64,000 nt of DNA, taken from the NCBI RefSeq assembly GCF_040675875.1, contig NZ_JBEGII010000001.1:744001-808000 (forward strand). The letters are read 5' to 3'. The DNA is from Microbacterium sp. LWO12-1.2 (GTDB lineage Bacteria > Actinomycetota > Actinomycetes > Actinomycetales > Microbacteriaceae). Position 1 is the first letter of the stretch. Every line of letters begins with the position of its first letter. Positions 2,327-18,965 of the stretch are shown here, one piece after another. The notes beneath the pieces were generated by a model. That model did not search any database. It saw nothing but the letters and a program-made list of their open reading frames with translations, and was not told the DNA's origin. A program made the translations under genes and the position numbers.

Positions 2327-2332
2327 TATCCT
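2327..2332 (+). promoter_or_regulatory. Possible -10 box TATCCT for the acyltransferase
   Basis: TATCCT lies about 60 nt before the GTG start of the acyltransferase gene, in the 112-bp divergent intergenic region. This gene has its own Shine-Dalgarno, so a leadered mRNA is expected. Confidence 0.35.
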
Positions 2333-2392
2333 TGCTCCAGCCGGTCGCCCCTGCGGACCGTGCGTCCTCACCGACAAGAAGGCAACTTCCGC

Positions 2393-3538: not shown

Positions 3539-4750
3539 CGTGCGGATCCACCCGTTCAGCAGTGCCTCGGCGCTGCGCGCACCCGAGTGCACGGCCTCGA
3601 CGAATCGCGGGCCGGCGGCAGCCGCAGCACGCGCCGTCTCCGGATCCTCGATCAGCGCGGTGATGACCGACCTGAGCGTCTCGGGGTCGGCCTCCACGAT
3701 GGGAAGCGGCATTCCGATCTCGGCGGCGATGCGCGCGCGGATGTCGGGAAGCACGTGCCCGACGACCACTCGACCCGCGGCCATCGCTTCGCAAGCGGCC
3801 ACACCGTACGACCCGAGGCGGAACTGATCCAGCACGATGTCTGCGTCGGCGAGGATGCCCGGCATGCGGTCGGAGCTGACGCCGGTGATCAGCTCGTACT
3901 CGACCGCGCCCCCGTCGATCAACGGTGCGAGCGCCGGTTCGATGAGGTGGCTGCCCTTCTGCACGGCAGAGCTGGAGGAATGGATGACCCGCACATGATC
4001 CTTGGCCATCGCAGGCTGGTCGGTGCGGAACCGATCGATGTCGATCACGACAGGGCACCAGATGCCCCACGGTACGTCGTCGAGGAGATCGGGAGTCGAG
4101 ACGAAGGTCGGACGGCGCAGTCGCGTGAGCAGTTCGAGATTCGCGTCCGCATCGGCCTGCAGCACCTCGGTGCGTGGATCCTCCGGATACGGCGACCATG
4201 GCGTGCGACGGGCGTGTTCACGAGGATTGCGGATATCGGTGCCATGAGAAAGGAAAGCCACCGAGACACCGGCTTCCTCCAGCGCAGTGACCTCTGCGCT
4301 CACCTGTCGATCGAACAGCCGACCGAACAGGGGGCGCTCGGCCTCGATGAGCACGTGGGAGAACTGTCGCACGGCATCCCACTCCGCCTGCGTCCACTCC
4401 GACGACGATGTGGACGCGACAGGTACGGGAGTGTCCGCAGGGAAGGAGAATCCGATGGGCAGCACGATCTCCATGTTGCGCGCGCGGAGGTCAGGGGCAG
4501 CCGTCTCGAGGGCGCGAGCCCATCGGTACCCCTGGCCCGAGTAGTTCGTGGGGCCGATGAAGACCCGGACGGGGGCGTCGGGGACGTCCGTGATGGGAGC
4601 CTCGCCGCCGCCCAAGGCCCGATGAGCGAGACGACCGATCAGACCGTCGGGGTCGCGGGCCGCCGAATCGAGAGCACGATTGACCCACGTGGGAAGCTGC
4701 GAGCGGTTCCTGATGATCCACCCGGCGATGGCGTTGAGCTGTCTGCGCAT
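3530..4750 (-). CDS. Group 1 (GT-B) glycosyltransferase, paralogue A
   Basis: About 406 residues. It carries the signature blocks of a four-member paralogous family in this locus: an N-terminal glycine-rich PTNYSGQGYRWARALE, SHGTDIRNPREH, FVSTPDLLDDVPWGIWCP, RVIHSSSSAVQKGSHLI and QFRIGDYG-like QFRLGSYGVAACEAMAAG. The last block aligns with the EX7E region of GT4 enzymes, but the first Glu is Gly. I chose the ATG at 4750 because a GGAG lies 10 nt upstream; an ATG at 4771 would add seven residues. It is the last gene of a four-gene leftward operon and lies directly after the 395-residue glycosyltransferase. Sugar specificity is unknown. Confidence 0.85.
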   Translation of the reverse strand: MRRQLNAIAGWIIRNRSQLPTWVNRALDSAARDPDGLIGRLAHRALGGGEAPITDVPDAPVRVFIGPTNYSGQGYRWARALETAAPDLRARNMEIVLPIGFSFPADTPVPVASTSSSEWTQAEWDAVRQFSHVLIEAERPLFGRLFDRQVSAEVTALEEAGVSVAFLSHGTDIRNPREHARRTPWSPYPEDPRTEVLQADADANLELLTRLRRPTFVSTPDLLDDVPWGIWCPVVIDIDRFRTDQPAMAKDHVRVIHSSSSAVQKGSHLIEPALAPLIDGGAVEYELITGVSSDRMPGILADADIVLDQFRLGSYGVAACEAMAAGRVVVGHVLPDIRARIAAEIGMPLPIVEADPETLRSVITALIEDPETARAAAAAGPRFVEAVHSGARSAEALLNGWIRTSD

Positions 4751-4751
4751 C

Positions 4752-5939
4752 TCAGGCGTGCTCCGCGGCATCGTCGCCGGACGCTTCGAGCACGTCCACG
4801 ACTCGTGCGGCGACGGCCGCGAGCGAATGGCCGGCTGCGGTCCAAGCCGCCACCCGGTGGCGTTCCGGAGCGGTGAGCGGATCCGTTGCCAGTGCCGTCA
4901 TGGCTGCAGCGACGGACGCGGCATCGTATGTGCTCACGATCCCGCCGCGGACCTCCGCGTTCGCGCGGTGGAGAAACGCACCCGTGGGCCCGGCCTCCGG
5001 CCCCACGAAGATCACGGGGCATCCGGCGGCCATCGACGAATAGGCTTTGGTGGCGAAGGCATATTCGTATCCCGAGTCGGGGAGCTGGGTGGCGAAGCTG
5101 GCCACCGCCCGGTGCAGGTGGGGGACGAGGTCGGCGCTCGGTATGGTCTCGATGAAATCGACGGCGTGGTCGACGCCGAGCTCCCTCGCGCGTTGCTCGA
5201 GTGCCTCCCGCTCGCTGCCGTTTCCGATGAACCGGAGGACGTATCCGGGATGCGTGACGGTGAACGCCGCGAACCCATCCACGATGATCTCCGCACCGTG
5301 CCAATGCGAATATGTGCCCGCGTACACGAACACACGTTCGGTCGGCACCTCTGCCTCTGTCGGCGGGAGGAACGAGGTGGTGTCGGCGCCGAATCCCGTC
5401 ACGACGACCGGCCGCGAGATACCGAGGGTGGCGATGCGATCCAGGACGCCCTGCGAGATCGTGACGATCGCGCGCGCTCCCCGCATCGCGAAGCGCTCCG
5501 TCGCCCGCAAGACGCGGAGCACGAGCCGTGATGCGGTCACCTGCTGAGCAGCGTCCGACCAGACATCCGCGGCATCGTAGACGTAGGGGATGCGGCGCAG
5601 TGTGCACACGACGCGGACGACGAAACCGGTGGTGGGCGGTGGCTCCATGAAGACCACGTCGGGCCGGGGGAGGAAGAGCAGCCGGAAGAACAGAGGCACA
5701 TCGAAGCTGAGATACGGGAGGTAGCCCCGCACGTAGCCGCTGCGGTCGCGCAGCACAGGAGACATGCGCACGTCTTCGGCTGGCTCGCCGACGTCGATGC
5801 CGTGCGGAGGCCGCGCTGTGAGAACGGTGACGTGGTGCCCGCGAGCGACGGCGTCGTCGGCGACAGCTCCGAGGAATGAGGATGCCGCGGATGGTTCAGG
5901 ACGGTAGATGCGAGAGACGATCGCGATGCGCATGCTCAT
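4752..5939 (-). CDS. GT4-type glycosyltransferase (WbuB-like)
   Basis: A 395-residue GT-B enzyme starting MSMRIAIVSRIYRPEPSAAS, with a glycine-bearing N-terminal nucleotide-fold loop, VYDAADVWSDAA in the middle, and VFVYAGTYSHWHGAEIIVDG opening the donor-binding domain. The C-terminal YEYAFATKAYSSMAAGCPVIFVG is the donor-contacting block and resembles WbuB-type amino-sugar transferases, but the exact donor is inference. The start ATG overlaps the upstream TGA (ATGA), giving coupling to the preceding gene. It is not a close paralogue of its three operon neighbours. Confidence 0.88.
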   Translation of the reverse strand: MSMRIAIVSRIYRPEPSAASSFLGAVADDAVARGHHVTVLTARPPHGIDVGEPAEDVRMSPVLRDRSGYVRGYLPYLSFDVPLFFRLLFLPRPDVVFMEPPPTTGFVVRVVCTLRRIPYVYDAADVWSDAAQQVTASRLVLRVLRATERFAMRGARAIVTISQGVLDRIATLGISRPVVVTGFGADTTSFLPPTEAEVPTERVFVYAGTYSHWHGAEIIVDGFAAFTVTHPGYVLRFIGNGSEREALEQRARELGVDHAVDFIETIPSADLVPHLHRAVASFATQLPDSGYEYAFATKAYSSMAAGCPVIFVGPEAGPTGAFLHRANAEVRGGIVSTYDAASVAAAMTALATDPLTAPERHRVAAWTAAGHSLAAVAARVVDVLEASGDDAAEHA

Positions 5940-7111
5940 GCCGCGAGGAAATGCTTCATCAGCTGATCGCGCGAGAAGTCGCCGTTGTGGAGGCGGGCCA
6001 CGAAGTCCTTGCCGGTACGGGCGATGGCTCGGTACTCGTCGCGCCGAACGGCGATGTCACGGAGCATATGCTCGAGGGTGTCCGGCGTTGTATCCGGTAT
6101 CGGCAGCGCCATGCCCGCGTGGGTCTCGACCTCACGGCGCACCTGCTCCGTGATGTGAGCGAGGACGACACGCCCCGACGTCATGCTCTCGCAGGCCGCG
6201 ACCCCGTAGTCGCCGATCCGGAACTGATCGAGGACCACGTCGGCTGACGCCATCACGGCGGGCATCTCGTGGTTCGGGACGCGGTCGAGTTGGATGAACT
6301 CGATGAGTCCCTCGTCGTGGAGACGTTGGGCGATCGGCACGATCAGGGGTGTTCCCTTGACATGCGGATTCGTGGGGCCGTGGATGACGCGGATGCGGTC
6401 GCGTTCGAGAAGCGGTTCGTCATTGATCCACTGTTGCTGGTCGATCACCACTCCGAGGAACTGCGCCTGGGGGAGGTCGACGAGCAGGCCCGCAGTCGAG
6501 ACGAACGTCGGTAGATCGAGATCCGCGATGGCCGCCAGATTGGCAGCCACGGCCTTCTCCGCGAGGTCGACGGGGATCCACTCGTCGCTGTCGGTGAACG
6601 GGGACCACGGCGTCGATTCGAGATGCGTCGACGGCAGGCGCACCTCATTTCCGTGTCCGACGATGCCGACATGCACGCCGCGCTCCCGCAGCAGCGCGGT
6701 CTGGCGCCGCAGATCTCCCGAGAACATCCCGCCGAGGATCGGGAAGCACGCTTCGATCAGTACGTGCGTGTAGTTCTCGGCGATCGCGTCGAGCATCGCC
6801 TTCTGCCACGCACGCGAGTGCTCGGCGGTGCGCCAGGGGACGGTGTAGTCGGCCGGGTACTGCAGAAGGTTGTTGCCGGAATGCACGTAGTTGACTCCGG
6901 AAACCGTGCCGGACGTCTCCGCGGCCCGTGACCACCGGTACCCCTGTCCCGCATAGTTCACAGGGCCGACGAGCATCCGGGTGGGACGGCTGAGGTCGGG
7001 CACCGGGGGTGGTGGTGGCGTCACTCCCTGCAGTCGGTCGACCGTCGAGGCGATCGTGTCCTGTACAGGTTTGGGGACGAGTTTCCAGACGGCTTCAACG
7101 CGCGGGTGCAT
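5936..7111 (-). CDS. Group 1 (GT-B) glycosyltransferase, paralogue B
   Basis: A 391-residue member of the local paralogous family. It shows PVNYAGQGYRWSRAAET near residue 50, THVLIEACFPILGG, GHGNEVRLPSTHLESTPWSP, FVSTAGLLVDLP, RVIHGPTNPHVKGTPLI and QFRIGDYGVAACESMTSG. The Gly at the position of the first Glu of EX7E is conserved. A proline run (TPPPPPVPDLSRP) separates a short N-terminal helix from the catalytic region. The ATG is supported by an AGGAAG Shine-Dalgarno 8-9 nt upstream. It overlaps its upstream neighbour by 17 nt and the next gene by 4 nt. Confidence 0.85.
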   Translation of the reverse strand: MHPRVEAVWKLVPKPVQDTIASTVDRLQGVTPPPPPVPDLSRPTRMLVGPVNYAGQGYRWSRAAETSGTVSGVNYVHSGNNLLQYPADYTVPWRTAEHSRAWQKAMLDAIAENYTHVLIEACFPILGGMFSGDLRRQTALLRERGVHVGIVGHGNEVRLPSTHLESTPWSPFTDSDEWIPVDLAEKAVAANLAAIADLDLPTFVSTAGLLVDLPQAQFLGVVIDQQQWINDEPLLERDRIRVIHGPTNPHVKGTPLIVPIAQRLHDEGLIEFIQLDRVPNHEMPAVMASADVVLDQFRIGDYGVAACESMTSGRVVLAHITEQVRREVETHAGMALPIPDTTPDTLEHMLRDIAVRRDEYRAIARTGKDFVARLHNGDFSRDQLMKHFLAA

Positions 7112-8330
7112 CGGCTTCTTCCTGTTCCGTTCCTGACCGGGGGAGCATCAGCCACGCCTGATCGAGGACCTCTGCGGATCGTCGACCGTCGTGGACGGCG
7201 CGGACGAATGCATCCCCCGGCGTGCGGAGCTCCTCGAGGTCGTCGCGAGCGGCAAGTTCACGGAGAACGTGTTCGATCGTATCCGGCGTGGCTTCGACGA
7301 TCGGCGGGGTCATTCCCGTCGCGTTCTTCACGGCGTTCCTGACGCGCTCGCTGAGGTGCCCGACGACGATGCATCCCGAGGCGAGTGCCTCACAGGCGGC
7401 GACGCCGTATGAGCCAATCCTGAGCTGATCGATCAGGACGTCGGCCATTGCGAAGCGGTCCGGCATCTGGGCCGTCGGTACGCCCTGGATGATGTCCAGA
7501 TCGATGATGCCCTCCGCTTCCAGCCGTTCCAGCGTGTTTCGAATGAGGTGCGTCCCTTTGATCACCGACACGGAGGGCGCATGGGCGACGCGCAGGCGCC
7601 GGTCGCGACTGCGCGCGCTCCGCGGGCGCTCCCACCGCGAGATGTCGACGGCGACTGGGCACCAGACCGCAGCAGGCAGGTCCTCGAGCAGGTCGGGGGT
7701 CGACACGAAGACCGGGCGCCCGCTGGTCTCGAGGAGGTCGATGTTGCGCGTCGCGACGACCTCGTCGCGCGCTGCGTAGATCTCAGGGTCCGCGTAGTGG
7801 GACCACGGGTTGTCGCGCAGATGCCGCGATGGCAGGCGCACATCGGTGCCGTGCGCGAGGAAGGCGACATTCACACCGCCCTTCGCAAGGGCATCGACCT
7901 GGGCCGCCACGGAACGCCCGAGCAGCCGGCCGAACGGCGGCTCCTCAGCCTCGATCAGGACGTGTGTCGCGCGCTGCGCTGCTTCCAGCTGTGCGCGCTG
8001 CCAGGCGGTGTCATTGTGATAGGTCGGCACCGGCACCACGAGATCGGCGGGGTAGTCGAACCCGCAGGGGACCTCGATGGCCATGTTTCGCGCGGAGATG
8101 CCCTGCGAGTGTCGCTCGAGTGCCCGGGCCCAGGCGAAGGCCTGGCCGGAGTAGTTGACGGGAGCGATCAACACGCGAGTGAGGCGCTCCTCGAACACGG
8201 TCACGCCCACTGCACCGGGGACGGGTTTGCCGTAGCGGCGTGCCGCGATCCGTCCGATGGGGCTCATCGGGGAGTCGGCGATCCGGTCTATCACGGCGTT
8301 CACCCACCGGGGGATTCTGTTCCGGTTCAC
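7095..8330 (-). CDS. Group 1 (GT-B) glycosyltransferase, paralogue C
   Basis: A 411-residue protein that starts with GTG (VNRNRIPRWVNAVIDRIAD). It carries PVNYSGQAFAWARALE, THVLIEAEEPPFGRLLGR, AHGTDVRLPSRHLRDNPWSH, FVSTPDLLEDLPAAVWCP, RVAHAPSVSVIKGTHLI and QLRIGSYGVAACEALASG. It is closest in organisation to paralogue A. It is the first gene of the operon of four glycosyltransferases and has a perfect TATAAT upstream at 8372-8377. The GT-B fold is supported by the two-domain layout; the acceptor is unknown. Confidence 0.85.
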   Translation of the reverse strand: MNRNRIPRWVNAVIDRIADSPMSPIGRIAARRYGKPVPGAVGVTVFEERLTRVLIAPVNYSGQAFAWARALERHSQGISARNMAIEVPCGFDYPADLVVPVPTYHNDTAWQRAQLEAAQRATHVLIEAEEPPFGRLLGRSVAAQVDALAKGGVNVAFLAHGTDVRLPSRHLRDNPWSHYADPEIYAARDEVVATRNIDLLETSGRPVFVSTPDLLEDLPAAVWCPVAVDISRWERPRSARSRDRRLRVAHAPSVSVIKGTHLIRNTLERLEAEGIIDLDIIQGVPTAQMPDRFAMADVLIDQLRIGSYGVAACEALASGCIVVGHLSERVRNAVKNATGMTPPIVEATPDTIEHVLRELAARDDLEELRTPGDAFVRAVHDGRRSAEVLDQAWLMLPRSGTEQEEADAPAR

Positions 8331-8371
8331 GTCGAGCGTGCATTCTCCGGAGGACAGGAAATCATCTCGCC

Positions 8372-8377
8372 ATTATA
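8372..8377 (-). promoter_or_regulatory. -10 box TATAAT for the four-gene glycosyltransferase operon
   Basis: A perfect TATAAT on the minus strand about 40 nt before the GTG at 8330. A CTGACC hexamer 19 nt further upstream is a possible -35. It is the only intergenic space before the operon and is divergent from the deacetylase promoter. Confidence 0.65.
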
Positions 8378-8413
8378 CCGAGGCGCCGAAACGGGAGGTC
8401 AGCGGCAGACGGC

Positions 8414-8419
8414 TATCAT
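8414..8419 (+). promoter_or_regulatory. -10 box TATCAT for the deacetylase gene
   Basis: TATCAT sits in the divergent intergenic region and would give a start near 8426, leaving a leader of about 52 nt before the ATG at 8478. The -35 is not obvious. Confidence 0.5.
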
Positions 8420-8433
8420 TGAGCGGGTTGCCG

Positions 8434-8460
8434 CGGTCCCGTTCCGATGGACCGGGACCG
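8434..8460 (+). promoter_or_regulatory. Hairpin in the 5' leader of the deacetylase gene
   Basis: CGGTCCCG (8434-8441) and CGGGACCG (8453-8460) form a perfect 8-bp stem with an 11-nt loop. The loop and right flank can also pair differently: CCGTTCCGAT against ATTGGAACGG with one mismatch. The structure lies between the presumed transcription start and the ATG. It may affect translation or RNA stability; function is inference. Confidence 0.4.
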
Positions 8461-8477
8461 ATTGGAACGGTGGATCG

Positions 8478-9152
8478 ATGACCTCCTCAGAGCCGGGCAA
8501 GAAGGGCTTCTCGCTCAAGGACTATGCGGAGACGCTGCATGCCTACCTTGACAGCGGATATGCGGTCACCAGCTTCGCGAAGTACCTCGATGCGCCGCAG
8601 GAGAAGCACCTCATCCTCCGCCACGACATCGACAACAGCATCGAGCAGGCCATGCGCGTCGCCAGGGTCGATGCCGAAGCAGGTTGCTCGTCGAGCATCT
8701 TCCTCCGGGTGCATGCGCGTGGATACAGTCTGATGAGTCTGCCCTCGCTCGTGATGATCCGCGAGATGGAAGAACTCGGGCATGAGGTCCAGCTGCACCT
8801 CGAGGGAGGCATCGGTGAGGTGCTCGGAGGCGACAATTTTGAGTGGGCCGAGCGTCAGCGGACGGTCTTCGAGACAGCCGTGGGACGCTCGATCGGCGGC
8901 TTCAGCCTGCATGAACCTGCGCGCCTTGGCGGGTTCGAGTTCGCCGCAGAACTGCTCGACCGTTGGTCGGACACGGTGAGCTACCACGCCTATGAGCCGC
9001 GGTTCATGATGCCCAATATGAAGTATCTGAGCGACAGCAGCGGAAACTGGCGCGAGGGGCACTTCGCCGAATGGATCGACAAGGAGCCGGTCATCCAGGT
9101 TCTGACGCACCCCTTCTGGTGGTTCGAGAAGGTGCCGGCCGAGAACTACTGA
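8478..9152 (+). CDS. NodB-like polysaccharide deacetylase family protein
   Basis: A 224-residue protein without a signal peptide. LILRHDIDNSIEQA near residue 40 supplies the Asp pair of metal-binding motif 1 of the carbohydrate esterase 4 / NodB fold. GHEVQLHLEGG near residue 105 supplies two His like motif 2, and the C-terminal VLTHPFWWF resembles the last motif. Such enzymes remove N- or O-acetyl groups from sugars, and this one would act in the cytosol. The start was set at the ATG after the leader; the frame is open upstream but shows no homology. It sits between glycosyltransferases and the N-acyltransferase, so it could expose an amine for re-acylation (inference). Confidence 0.75.
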   Translation: MTSSEPGKKGFSLKDYAETLHAYLDSGYAVTSFAKYLDAPQEKHLILRHDIDNSIEQAMRVARVDAEAGCSSSIFLRVHARGYSLMSLPSLVMIREMEELGHEVQLHLEGGIGEVLGGDNFEWAERQRTVFETAVGRSIGGFSLHEPARLGGFEFAAELLDRWSDTVSYHAYEPRFMMPNMKYLSDSSGNWREGHFAEWIDKEPVIQVLTHPFWWFEKVPAENY

Positions 9153-9168
9153 CGGGAGTGGTGCGAGC

Positions 9169-10074
9169 TCAGCGCTTGTTGTCGCCGAGTCTGCGTGCCG
9201 GGTTGCCGATGCGGATCTCATCCGCAGGGACGGACTTCACTGCGACCGCGCCGATGCCCAGAAGAGAGTTGCGCCCCAGAGTCACCCCTTGGATGACGGA
9301 CGCGTTCGGACCGATCCAGGCATCGTCGTCGATCACGACGCTGCCCGATATCTCCGCGCATGCGGTGATGATCACGTTGCGCCCGATCCGGCAGTTGTGC
9401 GCGACGTGCACGTGGTCGTCGATCTTGGTGTGATCGCCCACGCGGGTGGGGGAGATGGTGCCGGAGCACACGGTCGTGAAGTTCCCGACCTCGACGTGCT
9501 CCTCGATGATCACCGAGCCGACGTGCGGGATGCGGATGTTGTCACCGTCGGCGTCGCGTTCCATGCCGAAACCCTCCTCGCCGATGACGGCGTGGCTCTT
9601 GATGAGAGCGTACGCTCCGATGCGCACGTCATGACCGATAACGACGTGGTCGCGGATCTCAGCACCGTCGGCGACTACTGCGCCGGCGCGGATCACGGTG
9701 TACTCGCCGACATGGGCTCCGGGATGCACCTGCGCCTCCGGGTCGACGCGAGCGGTCGCGGCGATGCCGGGGATCGGTCGTCGCGCGAAGTGGGCCGCGA
9801 CCGCTTGAGCGAAGGCGGCGCGAGCGTTCTGTACGAGAATCGCCGTTCCAACGATGCTCTCGCTGGGGAGCGTGGAGGGGGCCAGCAGGATCGCACCGGC
9901 ACGGAGCGCGGCGGTGGCCGCATCCGCGTTCGCCACCGGATCGACCACGAAAGTCAGATCGCCCTCCGCAGCCTCACCCAAAGGGGCGAGTCCCGTCACC
10001 GCGCGGTCGGGGCCAGCGAGGACGGCGGAGAGCTGTTCGGTGATGACGGCGGCGGTGAGTTGTGGCGCGTTCAT
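9169..10074 (-). CDS. LpxD-like acyl-ACP-dependent N-acyltransferase (hexapeptide repeat)
   Basis: A 301-residue protein. Residues 1-100 resemble the LpxD N-terminal domain (GLAPLGEAAEGDLTFVVDP). Residues 105-290 are left-handed beta-helix hexapeptide repeats such as VIGHDVRIGAYALI and VTLGRNSLLGIGAV. The block DDHVHVAHNCRIG around residues 219-230 keeps the His (near 226) that is the catalytic base of LpxD, which transfers 3-hydroxyacyl groups from ACP to an amino sugar. Gram-positive bacteria make no lipid A, so the substrate must be another UDP-amino sugar or glycan intermediate. It is divergent from the ACP-SDR-KSIII genes that could supply its acyl donor. A TAGGGT box lies 6 nt before the ATG. 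Confidence 0.85.
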   Translation of the reverse strand: MNAPQLTAAVITEQLSAVLAGPDRAVTGLAPLGEAAEGDLTFVVDPVANADAATAALRAGAILLAPSTLPSESIVGTAILVQNARAAFAQAVAAHFARRPIPGIAATARVDPEAQVHPGAHVGEYTVIRAGAVVADGAEIRDHVVIGHDVRIGAYALIKSHAVIGEEGFGMERDADGDNIRIPHVGSVIIEEHVEVGNFTTVCSGTISPTRVGDHTKIDDHVHVAHNCRIGRNVIITACAEISGSVVIDDDAWIGPNASVIQGVTLGRNSLLGIGAVAVKSVPADEIRIGNPARRLGDNKR

Positions 10075-10080
10075 GCTCCG

Positions 10081-10086
10081 ACCCTA
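10081..10086 (-). promoter_or_regulatory. -10 box TAGGGT for leaderless LpxD-like gene
   Basis: Minus-strand TAGGGT is followed by 6 nt and the ATG at 10074. It is back to back with the TATGAT box of the divergent ACP gene, so both arms of the acyl module are controlled from one 65-bp region. Confidence 0.5.
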
Positions 10087-10127
10087 CTGCGACCGGCGCG
10101 CCGCGGCCGGCGCCAAAAGGGTGTTGA

Positions 10128-10133
10128 TATGAT
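10128..10133 (+). promoter_or_regulatory. -10 box TATGAT for the ACP gene
   Basis: TATGAT is followed by 6 nt and the ATG at 10140. A CGGAG immediately before the ATG could also act as a weak ribosome binding site if a short leader is made. Confidence 0.55.
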
Positions 10134-10139
10134 CGGAGC

Positions 10140-10364
10140 ATGGATGAGAAGGCGTTCCTTGATCTGGTGGCGGAGATTCTCGAGGTCGAGACCGATGAGG
10201 TCGCGCTGGCGGACGAGCTGGACGCAGTCGGCTGGGACTCTCTCGCCAACATCAGCTTCATCGCCGAGGTCGACGAGGCGGTAGGGGTCACCATCGACGC
10301 CGACGAGCTCGCGAATGCGAAGACTGTCGCCGACCTGCACGCGCTCACTCGTGCTGGTGTCTGA
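10140..10364 (+). CDS. Acyl carrier protein (dedicated, glycan locus)
   Basis: A 74-residue acidic protein predicted to be a four-helix ACP. GWDSLANISFIAEVDE around residues 31-46 contains the DSL motif whose Ser (about residue 34) receives 4'-phosphopantetheine. It resembles stand-alone ACPs of secondary glycan or polyketide loci; nothing in the immediate context suggests the housekeeping fatty-acid ACP. Its end overlaps the start of the ketoreductase, and the ketoacyl synthase III follows, so it should carry the acyl chain these enzymes build. The LpxD-like transferase is encoded divergently. Confidence 0.9.
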   Translation: MDEKAFLDLVAEILEVETDEVALADELDAVGWDSLANISFIAEVDEAVGVTIDADELANAKTVADLHALTRAGV

Positions 10365-11124
10365 CAGCTCCGACTATCTGAACCTCGGCGGCCGTTCCGT
10401 CGTGGTCACGGGGGCCACATCCGGCATCGGACGGCAGACGGCGCTGGCGCTGAGCCGCCAAGGAGCGCGCGTCGCGCTGATCGGACGGCGTGAGACCGAA
10501 CTCGCCGAGACCCGGGACATGCTCGCGGGTGAAGGACACATGGTCGTGCCGTACGACCTCACGGATCACTCCGGCGTCTCTGCCTTGCTTCGCGGGATCG
10601 CCGCCGAGCTTGGGCCGCTCGATGGGCTCGTGCACGCTGCGGGCGTGCATGTGACGGCGCCTCTGCGCATTGCGACGGCAGACCAGACGGCCGCGCTGTT
10701 CGACATCAACGTCACCAGTGCGCTGATGCTGGCCAAGGCGTTCCGCCACCCCAAAGTGCGTGCCGAATCGTCGAGTATCGTATTGCTGTCTTCTGCGGTG
10801 GGTCTCGTCGGCGAGGCGGGAGTGAGCGCATACGCCGCGAGCAAGGCCGCAGTCGCTTCCCTTGGCAAGTCCCTCGCACTCGAGCTCGCGCGAGAGGGCG
10901 TGCGTGTGAACAGCATCGCCGCGGGGATCGTCATGACGGCCCTGACCGAGCGCCTGAGGTCCTCTGTCGGTGCCGATGCTTGGGGTGAGATCGACGCGGC
11001 TCATCCGCTAGGGCTCGGCACCGTCGACGATGTCGCGGGGGCTGCGCTCTACCTCCTCTCGCCCGTGTCTCGGTGGGTGACCGGCTCGGTCATGGTCGTC
11101 GACGGCGGGTACACGGCGAGGTGA
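10357..11124 (+). CDS. SDR-family 3-oxoacyl-ACP reductase-like protein
   Basis: About 255 residues with the classical SDR layout: TGATSGIG cofactor loop near residue 19, HAAG near residue 90, catalytic Ser in VLLSSAVG and YAASK near residue 158, and the C-terminal VTGSVMVVDGGYTA typical of FabG-type enzymes. It should reduce a beta-ketoacyl thioester or a sugar ketone with NAD(P)H; the neighbouring ACP and KSIII favour the first. The start GTG at 10357 overlaps the ACP stop; GTG at 10351 is an alternative. It is probably translationally coupled to the ACP. Confidence 0.85.
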   Translation: MSDSSDYLNLGGRSVVVTGATSGIGRQTALALSRQGARVALIGRRETELAETRDMLAGEGHMVVPYDLTDHSGVSALLRGIAAELGPLDGLVHAAGVHVTAPLRIATADQTAALFDINVTSALMLAKAFRHPKVRAESSSIVLLSSAVGLVGEAGVSAYAASKAAVASLGKSLALELAREGVRVNSIAAGIVMTALTERLRSSVGADAWGEIDAAHPLGLGTVDDVAGAALYLLSPVSRWVTGSVMVVDGGYTAR

Positions 11125-11138
11125 CGCTGCTCGGCCCG

Positions 11139-11144
11139 TAGACT
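11139..11144 (+). promoter_or_regulatory. -10 box TAGACT for leaderless KSIII gene
   Basis: TAGACT followed by 6 nt and the ATG at 11151. It lies in the 26-bp gap between the SDR and KSIII genes and could add an internal promoter to the ACP-SDR-KSIII unit. Confidence 0.45.
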
Positions 11145-11150
11145 TGCCGC

Positions 11151-12158
11151 ATGGGTGCACGCATTGCAGCAGTCGACTACTACCTGCCTGAGACCGTCCT
11201 GAGCAACGAGGATCTGTCGAGAGAGTTCCCCGAATGGAGTGTGGAGAAGATCTCTGGCAAGACCGGGATCGACCGCCGCCACATCTCCGGAGCTGACGAG
11301 TTCTCCTCCGATCTTGCGATTGCTGCCGCCCGCCGCCTCTTCGAGCGCGAAGGTATCGACCCTCAGTCGATCGACTATGTCATCCTCTGCACTCAGAGCC
11401 CCGACTACTACCTGCCATCGACGGCGTGCATCGTGCAGGACGCTCTCGGGATCCCGACCTCGGCGGGTGCGACGGACATCACGCTCGGGTGCTCCGGCTA
11501 CGTCTATGCCCTGGGCCTCGCCAAGGGCCTGATCGAGTCCGGTCAGGCACGGAACGTGCTCGTCGTGACGGCCGATACGTACACGAAGTTCATCAACCCC
11601 GCTGACAAGTCCGTGCGCACGATCTTCGGCGATGGTGCGGCGGCGACGCTCGTCACCTCGGATGGCTCGGACACCGCACTCACGGCCTTCACCTACGGCA
11701 CCGATGGCGCCGGCGGCAAGAGCCTCATAGTCCCCAACGGCGGGCTCCGCGCAGGCTCGGCCCTGCAGCCGAAGGCGGACACTGCGGTGCGCGATCTGGT
11801 CGAGTCCGGCTACGACCTCTACATGGACGGCCCGGACATCTTCAACTTCACCCTGCGCGTCGTCCCAGAGACGGTCGAGGAGATCCTCGCCAAGGCGCAG
11901 CTGGAGCAGGACGACATCGATCTGTTCGTATTCCATCAGGCCAACGCGTTCATGCTCGAGCACCTGCGCAAGAAGCTGAAGGTGCCGGCAGAGAAGTTCT
12001 TCGTCTCCCTCGCCGAGTCGGGGAACACGGTGTCCTCGACCATCCCGATCGCGCTCGCCGACGCGGAGCGACAGGGCGCACTCATCCCGGGCATGCGCGT
12101 GATGATGCTCGGATTCGGTGTCGGCTTGTCCTGGGGCGGACTGGTCGCGACGTGGTGA
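11151..12158 (+). CDS. 3-oxoacyl-ACP synthase III family (KASIII/FabH-like)
   Basis: A 335-residue thiolase-fold enzyme. The catalytic triad is visible as Cys near 114 (LGCSGYVYAL), His near 262 (FVFHQANAF) and Asn near 292 (ESGNTVSSTIP). It has normal length for KASIII. KASIII condenses an acyl-CoA with malonyl-ACP, and with acetyl-CoA and the adjacent SDR this would yield 3-hydroxybutyryl-ACP. The ACYV/GYV context and location in a sugar locus match the accessory KSIII proteins found in flagellin- and O-glycan clusters rather than the fab operon. The product chain length is inference. Confidence 0.88.
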   Translation: MGARIAAVDYYLPETVLSNEDLSREFPEWSVEKISGKTGIDRRHISGADEFSSDLAIAAARRLFEREGIDPQSIDYVILCTQSPDYYLPSTACIVQDALGIPTSAGATDITLGCSGYVYALGLAKGLIESGQARNVLVVTADTYTKFINPADKSVRTIFGDGAAATLVTSDGSDTALTAFTYGTDGAGGKSLIVPNGGLRAGSALQPKADTAVRDLVESGYDLYMDGPDIFNFTLRVVPETVEEILAKAQLEQDDIDLFVFHQANAFMLEHLRKKLKVPAEKFFVSLAESGNTVSSTIPIALADAERQGALIPGMRVMMLGFGVGLSWGGLVATW

Positions 12159-13324
12159 ATGCGCCGGTCGCACGTCCGACGCTCCTGATTCTCTCCTTCG
12201 TCCCGATCGACGGCGACCCCCGCGTCATAAAACAGGTTCGCCGGTTCGTCGACGAGTACGACGTCACGACCTGCTCGCCGGGACCGTCGCCGCACCCCAG
12301 TGTGAGTCATGTCCAAATCCGCGGCAATATGACGCCGCGCCAGGACATCGTCACCAGGGTGCTGGACGAGGTCGCTCACCGTACTGAATGGTTCCGGCGG
12401 ATGTATTTCCAGTCCGCCGGAGTCGTCGAGACGACGCACCTTCTCCGCGGGCGCCGGTTCGACGCTGTGATCGCCAACGACGCTGAGACGGTGGGAGTGG
12501 CGTGCCAGCTCTTCGGCGCCGACCGCGTGCATGCCGATCTCCACGAGTTTTTCCCCGACATGGGCTTCGAGGACTCGGCCTTGGGACGGAGGCATCAGCG
12601 CTACTGGTCGTGGATGACGAAGAAACTCGTGTCGCAGGCGCACTCGTCCACAACTGTCGGCGGAGAGATCGCGAAGCGCTATCACGAGTACGGCGTCCAT
12701 CCCGGTGTGGTCACGAACTCCACGTACCTCCGTGACCTGCCCTACCGCCCTGTCGGCTCGGCGATCCGGCTCGTGCACAGCGGCAACCCTTTCCACGAGC
12801 GCAGCCTCGGCGAGATCATGCGCGCCGTCGCCGCCTCGCCGGTGGAGGTCACTTTCGACCTCTACTTGACGTGGCACCCCGAGAAGGAGCGTGCGGAGTT
12901 CGTGGCCCTCGCCGAAGAACTCGGGCCGCGAATCACCGTGCACGATCCTGTGTCGCAATCGGTTCTCATCGAGACCCTCAATGAGTACGACATGGGAATC
13001 CACATCCTGCAGCCCGTGAGCACGAACAACGTGATGGCGCTGCCGAACAAGTTCTTCGACTACGTCCAGGCGAGGCTCGGGATCATCGTCGGGCCGTCGA
13101 TCGAGATGGCGCGGATCGTCCGGGAGCACGGGATCGGAGTGGTGACGGAGGACTTCGATCCGGTGTCGATAGCGGCGGCGATCGACGCACTCACCCCTGA
13201 GGTCGTCGACGGCTTCAAGCAGGCGGCGATGCGCGCGGCCGACCCACTCTCGTCCGAGCGTCAGGTGGAGGTGTGGGCGAAGGCCGTGGAGGAGATCGTC
13301 TCCTCGTCGGACGGTCGTGCCTGA
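12152..13324 (+). CDS. GT-B fold glycosyltransferase
   Basis: About 390 residues. The N-terminus LLILSFVPIDGDPRVIKQVR resembles the DPRV loop of many GT4 enzymes. The middle has ADLHEFFPDMGF, and the C-terminal part NKFFDYVQARLGIIVGPSIEMA is the donor-binding block. IRLVHSGNPFHERSL begins the second Rossmann domain. There are two adjacent GTG starts (12152 and 12155); the second makes a GTGA overlap with the KSIII stop. It is translationally coupled to the next glycosyltransferase, which starts before this gene ends. The donor is unknown. Confidence 0.85.
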   Translation: MVNAPVARPTLLILSFVPIDGDPRVIKQVRRFVDEYDVTTCSPGPSPHPSVSHVQIRGNMTPRQDIVTRVLDEVAHRTEWFRRMYFQSAGVVETTHLLRGRRFDAVIANDAETVGVACQLFGADRVHADLHEFFPDMGFEDSALGRRHQRYWSWMTKKLVSQAHSSTTVGGEIAKRYHEYGVHPGVVTNSTYLRDLPYRPVGSAIRLVHSGNPFHERSLGEIMRAVAASPVEVTFDLYLTWHPEKERAEFVALAEELGPRITVHDPVSQSVLIETLNEYDMGIHILQPVSTNNVMALPNKFFDYVQARLGIIVGPSIEMARIVREHGIGVVTEDFDPVSIAAAIDALTPEVVDGFKQAAMRAADPLSSERQVEVWAKAVEEIVSSSDGRA

Positions 13325-14495
13325 CATCGCCGCGCGCGCCTATCGGTTCGCGCAGAGGGTCGTCCCCGACGCGGTCGCAGGATACGTGCTCCCTGGGCAC
13401 GTCCGCCAGTTCCAGCAGACGGGGGTGACCGCAGTGGGCGATGCCCGGCGCCGTCTGCTGATCGCGCCGGTGAACTCCGCCGGTCAGGGGTACGCGTGGG
13501 CGCGTGCGTCTGAGAGGCTGAGCGATGTCGCCGCGGCGAGTGCGATGTTCCGCGGTGGCGATGACGTCTTCGGATTCACGGCCGATCATCTGATCCCCGC
13601 GACGGCGCTGATCGGCAATGACCGCTGGCGCCGTGCGCAGCGCCGGGGGATACTCCGCGGCTTCACTCACGTGCTGATCGAGTCCGGCCGACATCTCTTC
13701 GAAATCGACGGCGACCCGATCGCTCTGGTGCGCGAGCTGCAGGCGGCGGGCATCCGCGTGGCGTTCGTCTGGCACGGCAGCGACATCCGGCTCCCGAGCG
13801 CGCACGCAGCGCGGGAGGTCGACTCGCCATTTCACGGCGATGCATATCCCGGGACATCCGTGCTTGAGGAGATCGCGGCTTCGCACGCGCGTCTCGCGGA
13901 GAGCGCCGGGATCCCGGTGTTCGTCTCCACCCCTGATCTTCTGTCGTACGCTCCCGGCGCGACGTGGCTCCCTGTCGTCGTCGATCCGCGGCGATGGGCG
14001 GATGCGGCGTCTCGCCCCGTACTGACAGGTGATGGTCCGCTGCGCGTCGTACATGCACCATCCCGGGCCAGCCTGAAGGGCAGCCACGCGATCGCCGACA
14101 CCATGCGGCGTCTGCACGATGAGGGCATCGTGGAGTACACCGAGCTCCACGGGATACCCGCGGAGCGGATGCCGGAGGTCGTCGGCAGCGCGGATGTGGT
14201 GCTCGACCAGTTCCTGGCCGGTGCCTACGGCGTCGCGGTGTGCGAGGCACTGGCGGCGGGACGGCTGGTCGTGAGCCACGTCGCCGACGACACAAGAGAA
14301 GCCGTGCGTCGGTTGAGCGGCAGGACGCTCCCCGTCGTGCAGTCGCGCGCATCCGAGCTCGAGGGGGTGCTGCGTGAGGTCGCGGCGGAGCGTGCGCGCT
14401 TCGCGGCGACGGCCGCAGAAGGGCCTGCGTTCGTCCGCGTCGTCCACGATGGCACCATGTCGGCTGAAGCGTTGCGGCCGTTCCTCGACTCCTGA
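13317..14495 (+). CDS. Group 1 (GT-B) glycosyltransferase, paralogue D
   Basis: A 392-residue fourth member of the local paralogous family: PVNSAGQGYAWARASE, THVLIESGRHLFE, WHGSDIRLPSAH, FVSTPDLLSYAPGATWLP, RVVHAPSRASLKGSHAI and QFLAGAYGVAVCEALAAG. It is encoded 5 kb from the other three and on the opposite strand. The GTG start lies inside the preceding glycosyltransferase gene (8-nt overlap). Again Gly replaces the first Glu of the EX7E region. Its place between the acyl module and wecB suggests that it acts on the same glycan. Confidence 0.83.
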   Translation: MPDIAARAYRFAQRVVPDAVAGYVLPGHVRQFQQTGVTAVGDARRRLLIAPVNSAGQGYAWARASERLSDVAAASAMFRGGDDVFGFTADHLIPATALIGNDRWRRAQRRGILRGFTHVLIESGRHLFEIDGDPIALVRELQAAGIRVAFVWHGSDIRLPSAHAAREVDSPFHGDAYPGTSVLEEIAASHARLAESAGIPVFVSTPDLLSYAPGATWLPVVVDPRRWADAASRPVLTGDGPLRVVHAPSRASLKGSHAIADTMRRLHDEGIVEYTELHGIPAERMPEVVGSADVVLDQFLAGAYGVAVCEALAAGRLVVSHVADDTREAVRRLSGRTLPVVQSRASELEGVLREVAAERARFAATAAEGPAFVRVVHDGTMSAEALRPFLDS

Positions 14496-14523
14496 ATCCC
14501 ATTCGCTGCATAGAGGAGAACCT

Positions 14524-15588
14524 GTGAAGATCATCAGCGTGGTAGGCGCGCGACCGCAGTTCGTCAAGCTCGCCCCGATCCACCACGCCGCGAAGGCGGC
14601 CGGTGTCGAGCACGTCATCGTGCACACCGGTCAGCACTATGATCCGATGCTCTCCGACGTGTTCTTCGACGACCTCGGGATCGGTGCTCCCGACGTGCAT
14701 CTGGGGGTCGGAAGCGGGTCGCATGGCGTGCAGACGGGCGCGATGCTCTCAGCCCTCGATGCGGTGTTCGACGAGCACCGACCTGACTGGGTGCTCGTCT
14801 ACGGCGACACGAACTCCACCGTTGCCGCAGCGCTGAGCGCCGTGAAGATGCACATCCCCGTCGCGCACCTCGAGGCGGGACTGCGCAGCTTCAACCGCCG
14901 GATGCCGGAGGAACACAACCGCGTGATGACAGACCACGCGGCCGATCTGCTCCTGGCTCCGACGCAGGTCGCCGTCGAGCACCTCGAGCGCGAGGGACTG
15001 GCCGAGCGGACAGTGCTTGTCGGCGACGTCATGACGGATGTGCTGTTCGACGTGCGTGATCGGGTCGCGGAAGCCAGTTCGGGACTCCTGGAGGAGTTCG
15101 GGTTGAGTGAAGGAGGTTACTACCTCGCGACCATCCACCGCGCTGAGAACACCGATGACCCCGCGCGGCTGCAGCAGGTGGTCAGCGCGCTGGCGGGGCT
15201 CGACAAGCCGGTGATCCTGCTCGCCCACCCGCGTGTCGTCGCCAAGGCTGCCGCACACGGGATCGACCTCACCCAGGGGGCGCTCATCTCGCGCTCGCCG
15301 CTGGCGTACCCCGAGCTGATCGCGGCCGCCGCGTCGAGTGCCGGAGTGGTCACCGACTCCGGAGGACTCCAGAAGGAGGCATTCCTCTTGCGGGTGCCGT
15401 GCACGACCGTGCGCACCGAGACGGAGTGGGTCGAGACGATCGATCTGGGGTGGAACGTGCTCGCGAACACGGCGGCGGAGATCTCGTCCGGGGTGACGCG
15501 GCCGCGTCCGCCGGCGACGGAGGACGCGCCATACGGCGACGGACAGGCCGCGGGGAGAGTGATCGCGGTCCTGACTGAACGGACCTGA
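14524..15588 (+). CDS. wecB: UDP-N-acetylglucosamine 2-epimerase
   Basis: A 354-residue non-hydrolysing UDP-GlcNAc 2-epimerase that interconverts UDP-GlcNAc and UDP-ManNAc. The N-terminus VKIISVVGARPQFVKLAP is the family hallmark. HTGQHYDPMLSD, VYGDTNSTVA, HLEAGLRSFNRRMPEEHNR and TDSGGLQKEA carry the expected substrate-binding and catalytic acidic residues and His. The GTG start was chosen because an AGGAGA lies 6-7 nt upstream and homology starts here. wecC follows after a 47-bp gap, so the product is probably fed to UDP-ManNAcA. Confidence 0.95.
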   Translation: MKIISVVGARPQFVKLAPIHHAAKAAGVEHVIVHTGQHYDPMLSDVFFDDLGIGAPDVHLGVGSGSHGVQTGAMLSALDAVFDEHRPDWVLVYGDTNSTVAAALSAVKMHIPVAHLEAGLRSFNRRMPEEHNRVMTDHAADLLLAPTQVAVEHLEREGLAERTVLVGDVMTDVLFDVRDRVAEASSGLLEEFGLSEGGYYLATIHRAENTDDPARLQQVVSALAGLDKPVILLAHPRVVAKAAAHGIDLTQGALISRSPLAYPELIAAAASSAGVVTDSGGLQKEAFLLRVPCTTVRTETEWVETIDLGWNVLANTAAEISSGVTRPRPPATEDAPYGDGQAAGRVIAVLTERT

Positions 15589-15635: not shown

Positions 15636-16940
15636 ATGCGCATTGCCGTCGTGGCCCTCGGAAAGATCGGGCTCCCCCTCGCACTCCAGTTCGCAGGCCA
15701 GGGCCACGAAGTGATCGGCGTCGATGTGAACGCCGGTCTCGTAGACCTCGTGAATCGTGGTGTGGAGCCGTTCCCCGGAGAAGCAGAGCTGCAGGAACGG
15801 CTGACGGCTGAGACCGTTGCGGGACGACTGCGCGCGACCACGGACTACGCCGAGGCGATTCCGTCCGCGGATGCGGTCGTGGTCGTGGTGCCGCTCTTCG
15901 TCAACGAGGAGACTGCCGAGCCGGAGTACGGCTGGATGGACCAGGCGACCGCATCGCTCGCAGCGCACCTTACACCGGGGACTCTCGTGTCGTACGAGAC
16001 GACTCTCCCCGTCGGTGTCACTCGCGGTCGTTGGAAGCCCATGATCGAGCGGATTTCGGGTCTGACCGAAGGAGAGGATTTCCACGTCGTCTTCTCCCCG
16101 GAGCGTGTATTCTCCGGCCGTATCTTCGCGGACCTCCGCAAGTACCCGAAGCTGATCGGAGGCCTGTCCGCGGAGGGTGCTCGTCGTGCGACCGAGTTCT
16201 ACGAGGCCGTGCTCGAGTTTGACGAGCGACCTGATCTCTCCCGTGCGAACGGCGTGTGGGACCTGGGCAGCGCGGAGGCCGCCGAGATGGCTAAGCTCGC
16301 CGAGACCACCTACCGTGACGTGAACATCGGTCTCGCTAATCAGTTCGCGCTCTTCGCGGGAGCGAATGGCATCGATGTGTACCAGGTGATCGAGGCCTGC
16401 AATTCTCAGGTCTTCAGCCACATCCATCGCCCCGGCATCGCCGTCGGCGGCCATTGCATCCCCGTGTACCCGAAGTTGTACCTCTCGACCGACCCTGATG
16501 CGAATATCGTCCGCACGGCACGGGAGTTCAACGAGTCGATGCCCGAGCGCCTGGTCGCCCAGGCGGCCGGCATGCTCGGAGACCTGTCGGGGCTGCAGGC
16601 CGTGGTGCTCGGTGCGGCATACCGTGGCGGTGTCAAGGAGACCGCATTCTCCGGTGTCTTCCCCACGGTCGCCGCTCTCGAGCAGCGCGGCGCTGTGGTG
16701 CGCGTGCACGATCCGCTCTACACCGATCAGGAGCTGCAGAGCCTCGGATTCGTGCCCTACTCCTTGGGGGAGGACGTCGATATCGCCATCGTCCAGACCG
16801 ATCACGCGGGCTACCGTGAGCTTGCGCCCGCGCAGCTCCCCGGGATAAGGCTGCTCGTCGATGGTCGCGCTGCTACAGACGCGGACCGCTGGGCAGGCAC
16901 TCCTCGTCTGGTGGTGGGCACCCCCGCCAGCGGATTGTGA
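15636..16940 (+). CDS. wecC: UDP-N-acetyl-D-mannosamine dehydrogenase (nucleotide-sugar dehydrogenase)
   Basis: A 434-residue UDP-sugar 6-dehydrogenase. The NAD-binding loop is ALGKIGLPLA near residue 8. YETTLPVGVT (119-129) and SPERV are family motifs. The central helix AKLAETTYRDVNIGLANQ carries the conserved Lys, and the catalytic Cys is near 274 in GGHCIPVYP. Pairing with wecB points to oxidation of UDP-ManNAc to UDP-ManNAcA with two NAD+. VALGKIG departs slightly from the usual GxGxxG at the first Gly. It acts in the cytosol and feeds the glycosyltransferases of the locus. Confidence 0.9.
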   Translation: MRIAVVALGKIGLPLALQFAGQGHEVIGVDVNAGLVDLVNRGVEPFPGEAELQERLTAETVAGRLRATTDYAEAIPSADAVVVVVPLFVNEETAEPEYGWMDQATASLAAHLTPGTLVSYETTLPVGVTRGRWKPMIERISGLTEGEDFHVVFSPERVFSGRIFADLRKYPKLIGGLSAEGARRATEFYEAVLEFDERPDLSRANGVWDLGSAEAAEMAKLAETTYRDVNIGLANQFALFAGANGIDVYQVIEACNSQVFSHIHRPGIAVGGHCIPVYPKLYLSTDPDANIVRTAREFNESMPERLVAQAAGMLGDLSGLQAVVLGAAYRGGVKETAFSGVFPTVAALEQRGAVVRVHDPLYTDQELQSLGFVPYSLGEDVDIAIVQTDHAGYRELAPAQLPGIRLLVDGRAATDADRWAGTPRLVVGTPASGL

Positions 16941-16966: not shown

Positions 16967-18136
<1,170 letters not shown>

Positions 18137-18146: not shown

Positions 18147-18965
18147 GTGAGTCACACTGCGGTCGGGGCACCGGGGACGCCCCGTAGATATCTGCATTCT
18201 CTGTGGCTTCTCTCCGCCCGCGACCTCAAGGTCCGCTACGCGACCAGCATGCTGGGCTACGTCTGGTCGGTGCTCGACCCGCTGGTGATGAGCCTGATCT
18301 ACTGGTTCGTCTTCACGCAGGTGTTCCACCGGGACGTGGGCGAGGAGCCGTACATCGTGTTCCTCATCAGCGCCCTGCTGCCGTGGGTGTGGTTCAACTC
18401 GTCTGTGAGCGACTTCACGCGTGCCTTCAAGAAGGACGCGAGATTGGTGCGATCGACCGCGATCCCGCGCACGATCTGGGTGAACCGGATCGTGCTGAGC
18501 AAGGGGATCGAGTACCTGTTCTCGCTCCCCGTGCTCGTGCTGTTCATCGTGATCAGCCTGCTGATGGAGACGAATCCCGACAACGTCGTCCAGGTCGGCT
18601 GGGGGATCCTGTGGATGCCGGTGGCGATGCTGTTGCAGGCGATCCTGCTGGTCGGGCTGGGACTGCTCATCGCGCCGCTCTGTGTCATGTACGTCGACCT
18701 CGAGCGGACCACGGCGTTGATCCTGCGGGCGATGTTCTACGCGACCCCCATCATCTACAACGTCACGGACCTTCCCGGAATCGCCCAGACGCTCGGGGCT
18801 TTCAACCCCCTCGCCGGGATCTTCATGCTGTACCGGATGGCGTTCTTCCCCGACCAGTGGAATCTGTTCACGCTCGTGATCAGCGTCGTGATGAGCCTGG
18901 CGATCCTCGCGCTCGGAGTCTGGGCATTCCGCCGGCTCGAGCGTCCCGTGCTGAAGGAGCTGTGA
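18147..18965 (+). CDS. wzm: ABC-2 polysaccharide/galactan exporter permease
   Basis: A 272-residue membrane protein with six predicted helices. The start RYLHSLWLLSARDLKVRY...LGYVWSVLDPL is characteristic of Wzm/TagG permeases, where a basic amphipathic N-terminus precedes helix 1. With the ATPase encoded next, it would move an undecaprenyl-linked glycan across the membrane. In mycobacteria the equivalent pair exports galactan. The gene ends one base into the ATG of wzt (TGATG), so the subunits are translationally coupled. Confidence 0.93.
   Translation: MSHTAVGAPGTPRRYLHSLWLLSARDLKVRYATSMLGYVWSVLDPLVMSLIYWFVFTQVFHRDVGEEPYIVFLISALLPWVWFNSSVSDFTRAFKKDARLVRSTAIPRTIWVNRIVLSKGIEYLFSLPVLVLFIVISLLMETNPDNVVQVGWGILWMPVAMLLQAILLVGLGLLIAPLCVMYVDLERTTALILRAMFYATPIIYNVTDLPGIAQTLGAFNPLAGIFMLYRMAFFPDQWNLFTLVISVVMSLAILALGVWAFRRLERPVLKEL

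Follow-up and report, generated by a model that had tools for sequence, protein, structure and literature searches.

A group of five genes from Microbacterium sp. LWO12-1.2, proposed here to take part in an exchange of N-acyl groups on a sugar of an exported glycan, was examined within a window of 64,000 nucleotides (contig NZ_JBEGII010000001.1, positions 744,001 to 808,000). The original prediction placed five open reading frames (ORFs) for a deacetylase, an acyltransferase and an acyl supply at 8478-12158 of this window, and all could be confirmed there, in the order CE4-like (+), LpxD-like (-), acyl carrier protein (ACP, +), short-chain dehydrogenase/reductase (SDR, +) and 3-ketoacyl-ACP synthase III (KASIII, +). 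The features of the module and of the gene that follows it are given below.

8478..9152, + strand: CE4/NodB-fold deacetylase-like protein, 224 residues (predicted fold)
9169..10074, - strand: predicted LpxD-sister left-handed beta-helix N-acyltransferase, 301 residues (PF04613, 45.4 bits; Hexapep, 97.1 bits)
10075..10139, no strand: divergent intergenic region of 65 bp between the acyltransferase and ACP genes (ORF coordinates)
10140..10364, + strand: ACP, 74 residues, S34 in DSL (PP-binding, 42.9 bits)
10351 (or 10357)..11124, + strand: SDR, probably a 3-ketoacyl-ACP reductase, 257 residues (adh_short_C2, 180.6 bits; adh_short, 158.3 bits)
11151..12158, + strand: KASIII, C114/H262/N292 (PRK09352, 302 bits, cut-off 249; ACP_syn_III_C, 110.5 bits)
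12152..13324, + strand: glycosyltransferase-like protein, overlapping the KASIII gene (weak Pfam match only, E 0.0075)

The ACP and SDR genes overlap by 14 or 8 nucleotides, depending on the SDR start (10351 or 10357), and the KASIII gene overlaps the next gene (start 12152) by 7 nucleotides. The motifs claimed for the three acyl-supply proteins were found as described: D33-S34-L35 in the ACP, YAASK at residue 161 of the SDR (with TGATSGIG at 20) and the Cys/His/Asn triad of the KASIII. The nearest named relatives among the matches listed are Microbacterium loci L003 and L004, with acyltransferase identities of 94 and 85%, respectively, identical gene order, and a glycosyltransferase-like gene after the module. 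Window positions 1-24000 contain no direct repeat with a length of at least 60 bases.

For comparison of the acyltransferase, relative loci from many phyla were collected (at least 70 matches, a sample selected with two peptide patterns). After L072, of which only 54 residues matched, was dropped, 69 loci remained, and these were classed as sister (42) or canonical LpxD (27) from scores, neighbours and sequence ends before residue positions were checked. All locus counts that follow refer to these classes among the matches listed, with stretches reaching up to 10 kb each way; the 27 canonical loci are lipid A loci, a control for LpxD relatives and not for glycan loci at large.

The 301-residue protein carries the LpxD N-domain (PF04613, cut-off 30.8 bits), and its top NCBIfam models are LpxD (187.2 and 176.2 bits), followed by NeuD/PglD (114.1). 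Both LpxD cut-offs were missed (187.2 versus 207 bits, and 176.2 versus 242.5 for TIGR01853), as was that of NeuD/PglD (TIGR03570, 114.1 versus 160.8), and no PglD_N was present among six Pfam matches at E ≤ 0.001. H226 aligns with the catalytic H239 of E. coli LpxD, a position that is His in all 69 loci. At the position of E. coli H276, 26 of 27 canonical loci and none of the 42 sisters have His, and the equivalent in the present protein is Gly263. The C-terminal extension of LpxD, which serves in ACP docking, is likewise missing: the protein ends at GNPARRLGDNKR, and past E. coli residue 308 there are 8 residues in L003 and L004, 5-27 in 40 of 42 sisters, and 30-50 in 26 of 27 canonical proteins. 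The exceptions are L042 (38 residues) and L038 (117, its frame being read past the gene end) among the sisters, and the canonical L054, which is cut by its contig. F41 and Y47 of E. coli LpxD form a uracil-stacking pair; F41 is kept in 27 of 28 sisters aligned, and Y47 is not conserved. The sister C-terminus reads GNPA(R/K), which we take to resemble that of acetyl-CoA-dependent left-handed beta-helix enzymes. LpxC gave no match in the host genome (G000) in a search that was positive in 4 of 14 control genomes. A genuine LpxD was rejected on the lack of the H276 equivalent, of the C-terminal extension and of LpxC, and by the features tested the protein is classed as a sister of LpxD. The earlier assignment to the LpxD family stands for the N-domain and the catalytic His, and fails at the family cut-offs, H276 and the C-terminus; the acetyltransferase affiliation that had been named as a possible refutation of the module is answered in part by the higher LpxD scores, with the missing extension in its favour. 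In a tree of 54 rows (53 loci and E. coli; omitted were L014, L038 and 14 loci that scored under 100 bits, including L063), canonical LpxD formed one side of a branch with support 99/93, and L029, a sister by residue, sat nearest to it.

The 224-residue protein had been described as NodB-like, and here profile and fold comparison agreed with the claim where Pfam did not: PF01522 gave no match even at E ≤ 10, and only 2 of 10 relatives matched it weakly (E 0.0037 and 0.013). The AlphaFold2 model shows a CE4/NodB deacetylase fold with a predicted local distance difference test score of 91. In a 26-row alignment, R48, H49, D50, H107 and H145 are invariant and D52 and H211 nearly so; for the profile comparison, L038 was left out of the 26 rows. 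A single-sequence search of the PDB returned chance rows only, and the profile search returned six rows, four or five of CE4 type, none significant (E 0.034-0.59). Relatives carry the source name 'GCN5 family acetyltransferase', which was rejected in favour of the modelled fold. Bordetella WbmS (PDB 3hft) is 10% identical and has its own Pfam family, PF22537, which the protein does not match. On the strength of the model, the protein is assigned to a CE4-fold deacetylase-like family that is invisible to Pfam.

In 39 of 42 loci, the sister gene has a deacetylase-type gene as a neighbour (25 CE4-like, 14 PIG-L), whereas neither type was found in any of the 27 canonical loci; the three sister loci with neither are L007, L031 (contig ends) and L019. 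Among 38 gaps measured between deacetylase and acyltransferase genes, 28 fell between -13 and +100 nucleotides, 12 were negative and 37 were at most 557; the largest, in L014, was 2,092. For L063, the matches to the two genes were 11 nucleotides apart. On the tree, the CE4-like label changes 8 times and the PIG-L label 6 times; well supported branches require at least 5 and at least 4 of these changes, respectively. This repeated switching of partner type supports a deacetylation followed by re-acylation, so that the corresponding claim of the original prediction is partly borne out, by comparative evidence. A third partner type was seen in another member of the Microbacteriaceae (G008), where a WbmS-like deacetylase gene (PF22537, 103.7 bits) has as neighbours LpxD-like (PF04613, 24.1 bits) and ACP-like (PP-binding, 15.6 bits) genes, both below cut-off, and a KASIII gene, in the window's order and orientations without the SDR.

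Two further arrangements were seen. In Sphaerochaeta (L035), sister genes at 7976-8869 and 9635-10567 flank a single CE4-like gene, perhaps one for each amine of one diamino sugar. In Paucibacter (L032, counted as CE4-like), a PIG-L-like ORF of 88 codons (2632-2895, 86 bits) between the CE4-like and acyltransferase genes may be what is left of an exchange of partners.

Of the 42 loci, 9 have KASIII and SDR genes beside the sister gene (L003, L004, L005, L010, L011, L014, L024, L034 and L035), which marks the acyl supply as an optional add-on. Co-occurrence of all five genes, as anticipated, therefore holds for the deacetylase pairing and not for one inseparable unit. The ACP was recovered by its own profile in 7 of these 9 loci and by eye in L034; the ACPs of L024 and L034 contain DSL and have no Pfam match. 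The best NCBIfam rows of the SDR are general SDR models, and its TIGR01830 score (156 bits) is under the cut-off of 297.75; it is probably a 3-ketoacyl-ACP reductase, with a putative ketoreductase role. KASIII scored over the PRK09352 cut-off and under that of TIGR00747 (268.7 versus 292.1 bits); Cys-His-Asn is kept in all 15 KASIII/FabH rows compared, and the closest solved relative is 3gwa (342 bits). Its identity is 49% to the KASIII of Pelosinus L024 and 44% to that of Caldiserica L034, both beside LpxD sisters, compared with 29% for the other FabH of the host and 33% for that of E. coli (partial sequence). The host genome gave one FabD, one AcpS and one other FabH match. L011 has two KASIII genes in tandem, the sister gene of L012 has upstream of it genes for an AMP-ligase, LuxE, LuxC and AcpS, and in Leucobacter L006-L008 a Gfo/Idh/MocA gene occupies the place of the ACP gene. 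No dehydratase was recognised by Pfam among the genes at 3530-13324, for which reason the acyl chain would stop at the 3-hydroxyacyl stage.

Downstream of the module lie glycosyltransferase-like genes and genes for an epimerase, a nucleotide-sugar dehydrogenase and a UDP-galactopyranose mutase. The epimerase and the dehydrogenase bear on the acceptor sugar.

14374..15588 (real start probably 14524), + strand: WbpI-like UDP-2,3-diacetamido-2,3-dideoxyglucuronate 2-epimerase (PDB 8sxv, 371 bits)
15636..16940, + strand: WbpA/WecC-like nucleotide-sugar 6-dehydrogenase (TIGR03026, 288.9 bits, cut-off 189.8)

Matches of the epimerase start at residue 51, with 371 bits for 8sxv versus 246 for 4neq, a UDP-N-acetylglucosamine (UDP-GlcNAc) 2-epimerase. 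The WecB model TIGR00236 was also passed (256 bits, cut-off 210.15), and a plain WecB was rejected on the far better 8sxv-type match. Outside the window, 11-14 kb upstream of the module (G000:C1:738485-741176), genes for a hexapeptide transferase, a DegT aminotransferase and a Gfo/Idh/MocA dehydrogenase lie in a row; their families fit WbpD-, WbpE- and WbpB-like proteins, respectively, with no equivalog cut-off reached. Synthesis of UDP-2,3-diacetamido-2,3-dideoxymannuronic acid (UDP-ManNAc3NAcA) takes five enzyme kinds (Wbp/Wlb), and by family genes of all five kinds are present, three upstream of the window and two inside it. These Wbp-type genes point to a 2,3-diamino-2,3-dideoxyuronic acid as the likely acceptor. 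As the aminotransferase would give a free amine at C-3, a deacetylase would be needed only where an amine already carries an acetyl group, C-2 being the simplest choice.

Across the 42 sister loci, DegT genes were found in 21, WbpD-like in 14, WbpA-like in 14, WbpI-like in 9 and Gfo in 10, compared with Gfo in 3 of the 27 canonical loci and none of the other four kinds. WbpI- and WbpA-like genes lie at most 7 kb from the sister gene in L003, L004, L005 and L010, the last of these (Salinibacterium) having WbpI-, WbpA-, Gfo- and DegT-type genes within 8 kb; the stretches examined of L011 and L013 contained no WbpI- with WbpA-like genes. In L044 (Marinomonas) and L063 (Enterovibrio), sister, PIG-L and WbpI-like epimerase genes are clustered, with DegT, WbpD- and WbpA-like genes upstream.

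Occurrence was examined in 396 evenly sampled Actinomycetota genomes. Four of them have the sister gene at full length (≥259 bits), accompanied by a CE4-like gene in G000 and G528 and by PIG-L in G539; in the fourth, G470, the sister gene is about 13 kb from a CE4-like gene. CE4-like profile matches occurred in 11 of the 396. When wider regions were inspected, a strong sister gene lay by the CE4-like gene in G000 and G528, and weaker left-handed beta-helix genes (106-107 bits) lay near it, non-adjacent, in G607 and G589; no acyltransferase gene was found in the 1.5-kb flanks of the CE4-like gene in G364, G423, G558 and G626. Within the Microbacteriaceae, 239 of 249 genomes gave some match to the sister query (E ≤ 0.001), mostly short hexapeptide stretches; strong matches (≥378 bits) were confined to G000, G047 and G151, with G008 at 141 and G177 at 94 bits. 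The module is a rare accessory.

The genes and their families, the conserved catalytic residues, the predicted CE4 fold, the recurrent pairing with unrelated deacetylases and the Wbp-type genes are direct observations. From them we infer the substrate, the order of steps, the acyl chain, the ACP as donor, the ketoreductase role of the SDR and a teichuronic-acid-like export, and hold with moderate confidence that the genes of this locus form a pathway in which a sugar of an exported glycan is N-deacetylated and then re-acylated, with a diaminouronate acceptor and an ACP-made 3-hydroxyacyl group. Wbp-type enzymes (WbpB/E/D-like upstream, WbpA- and WbpI-like in the window) would make a UDP-2,3-diacetamido-2,3-dideoxyuronic acid, from which the CE4-fold protein would remove one N-acetyl group, most likely at C-2. 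The host's single FabD would load malonyl onto the module ACP, KASIII would condense a short acyl-CoA (probably acetyl-CoA) with malonyl-ACP, and the SDR would reduce the product to 3-hydroxyacyl-ACP. The LpxD sister would then move the 3-hydroxyacyl group, for which 3-hydroxybutyryl is a guess, to the freed amine, and the product would be exported in a teichuronic-acid-like polymer.

Several observations weigh against this pathway. For the donor, these are the missing H276 equivalent and C-terminal extension, the unconserved Y47, and the absence of KASIII from the stretches examined of 33 of the 42 sister loci, by which this family of acyltransferases is not tied to ACP supply. The module KASIIIs of L035 (34%) and G008 (27%) are no closer to that of the window than housekeeping FabH (29-33%), no ACP was found in L035, and for the SDR the top-ranking Pfam entry bears the name 'Enoyl-ACP reductase' (PF13561, a general model of SDRs). 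For the acceptor, the Gfo protein is below the UDP-GlcNAc 3-dehydrogenase cut-off (205.5 versus 450), the DegT protein has a better PDB match than WbpE, Gfo and DegT occur together in only 4 of 42 sister stretches, and Leucobacter L006-L008 have neither WbpI- nor WbpA-like genes in the stretches examined. For the pairing, no deacetylase gene was found within 1.5 kb of the G470 sister gene or by partial sister matches in G523 and G529 (86 and 83 bits), nor any acyltransferase gene in the stretches around the CE4-like genes of G359, G470 and G582.

The lack of an extension and of KASIII in most relatives, together with the GNPA(R/K) terminus, would also fit an acyltransferase that uses acetyl-CoA or another acyl-CoA, the ACP, SDR and KASIII serving a different acylation of the same locus, for example of a hydroxyl; a membrane acyltransferase is indeed encoded in the window (Acyl_transf_3, 2174-3538, 89.4 bits). 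Such an arrangement is unlikely, given that the ACP gene starts 65 bp from the acyltransferase gene, that KASIII and SDR recur in three further phyla, and that deacetylation followed by plain re-acetylation would presumably be futile. A stronger contender, and one that overlaps the proposed pathway in all but the acceptor, keeps the re-acylation and places it on GlcNAc, ManNAc(A), GalNAc, or a lipid- or polymer-linked sugar, with the Wbp genes as bystanders. This is quite possible, though we give it less than an even chance: the proximity of WbpI- and WbpA-type genes to the sister gene in four loci speaks for the diaminouronate, and the retained N-domain and F41, a uracil-binding residue in LpxD, speak for a nucleotide-linked substrate. 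That the five genes are mere neighbours is very improbable. Glycan loci do collect and often recombine such genes, KASIII is found in just 9 of 42 loci, and the control loci are all lipid A loci; against this stand the deacetylase pairing (39 of 42 versus 0 of 27), the position of the deacetylase gene adjoining the sister gene and not elsewhere in the stretches, the overlapping frames and the repeated partner switching.

A broader interpretation was also considered, in which the pair of LpxD sister and deacetylase constitutes a widespread modular swap of N-acetyl groups on UDP-amino sugars. The interchangeable parts would be CE4-like, PIG-L or WbmS-like deacetylases and, as acyl suppliers, either ACP-KASIII-SDR or LuxE/LuxC/ligase sets. 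This generalisation is offered tentatively.

Other features of the surrounding glycan locus were recorded. Four paralogous glycosyltransferase-like proteins (3530-4771, 5936-7111, 7095-8330 (-) and 13317-14495 (+)), with mutual identities of 36-46%, have no Pfam match over cut-off. The UDP-galactopyranose mutase gene (16976-18136, 338 bits, over cut-off) and that of a GlfT2-like galactofuranosyltransferase (21259-23169) raise the possibility of a galactofuranose polymer as a further product of the locus. Polysaccharide-export-type ABC transporter genes are present at 18203-19699 of the window and at L139 9731-11379 (by eye), and a PglK/MsbA-like exporter at L139 17187-18989 lies in the same glycan region, which suggests more than one export route.

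In lipid A biosynthesis, N-deacetylation by LpxC is followed by N-(3-hydroxyacyl) transfer by LpxD, and a GnnA/GnnB/LpxA variant exists. The proposed pathway would share the order of steps and the fold of the transferase; it differs in having a CE4-fold deacetylase in place of LpxC, in lacking the H276 equivalent and C-terminal extension of LpxD and in its Gram-positive host. GnnA and GnnB resemble the Gfo/DegT pair in kind. With the UDP-ManNAc3NAcA pathway of Pseudomonas (Wbp) and Bordetella (Wlb), the locus has genes of all five enzyme kinds in common, judged by family; here these would be joined by a deacetylase and by a further N-acyltransferase.

The nearest described system is wfpC/D/E/F/G of Flavobacterium psychrophilum, a polysaccharide locus that holds an ACP, 3-ketoacyl-ACP synthases, a reductase and an acyltransferase, with roles predicted by its authors for the 3,5-dihydroxyhexanoyl group on an amino sugar of the O-polysaccharide (PMC6519341); judging from the available part of that source, dedicated sets of this kind for sugar N-acyl groups were already proposed there. 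A wfp-like set (ACP, KAS, ketoreductase-type SDR and acyltransferase) is present in the polysaccharide locus studied here. The F. psychrophilum system is Gram-negative, has two synthases and a PglD-homologue acyltransferase, and obtains its amine by a PglE/PglF route, with no deacetylase step named in that part of the text (PMC6519341). Its two synthases for a C6 acyl group are paralleled by the tandem KASIII genes of L011. The ligase/LuxE/LuxC set of L012 resembles group II flagellin glycan islands of Aeromonas, which hold an ACP, a 3-oxoacyl-ACP reductase, an AMP-dependent synthetase, LuxE and LuxC; these islands serve pseudaminic acid glycans, and the portion of the paper at hand mentions no LpxD sister (PMC7874193). 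(R)-3-hydroxybutyryl occurs on GlcNAc3NRA of P. shigelloides O51 (PMC10609480, in the section available). ManNAc3NAcA is found in a teichuronic-acid-like polymer of Streptomyces griseus, and such a polymer is a receptor for umbrella toxins in Streptomyces, according to the accessible text of PMC13274773. A search of open-licence literature listed no paper on an acyl-supply set combined with a deacetylase and an LpxD sister, and none describing a pathway of this kind in an actinobacterium.

The locus suggests how an actinobacterium could place short 3-hydroxyacyl amides on a surface glycan, by a route open to testing and with a lipid-A-like logic outside lipid A. It also sets apart an LpxD sister family whose partners include a deacetylase-like family that Pfam does not recognise. 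Relatives that currently carry the names UDP-3-O-[3-hydroxymyristoyl] glucosamine N-acyltransferase or 'GCN5 family acetyltransferase' could be reannotated. Swaps of N-acyl groups in ManNAc3NAcA-type sugars could conceivably alter recognition by toxins or phages. Should the modular swap prove true, LpxC-LpxD of lipid A would be one specialised case of a wider scheme, by which Gram-positive surface glycans are decorated as well.

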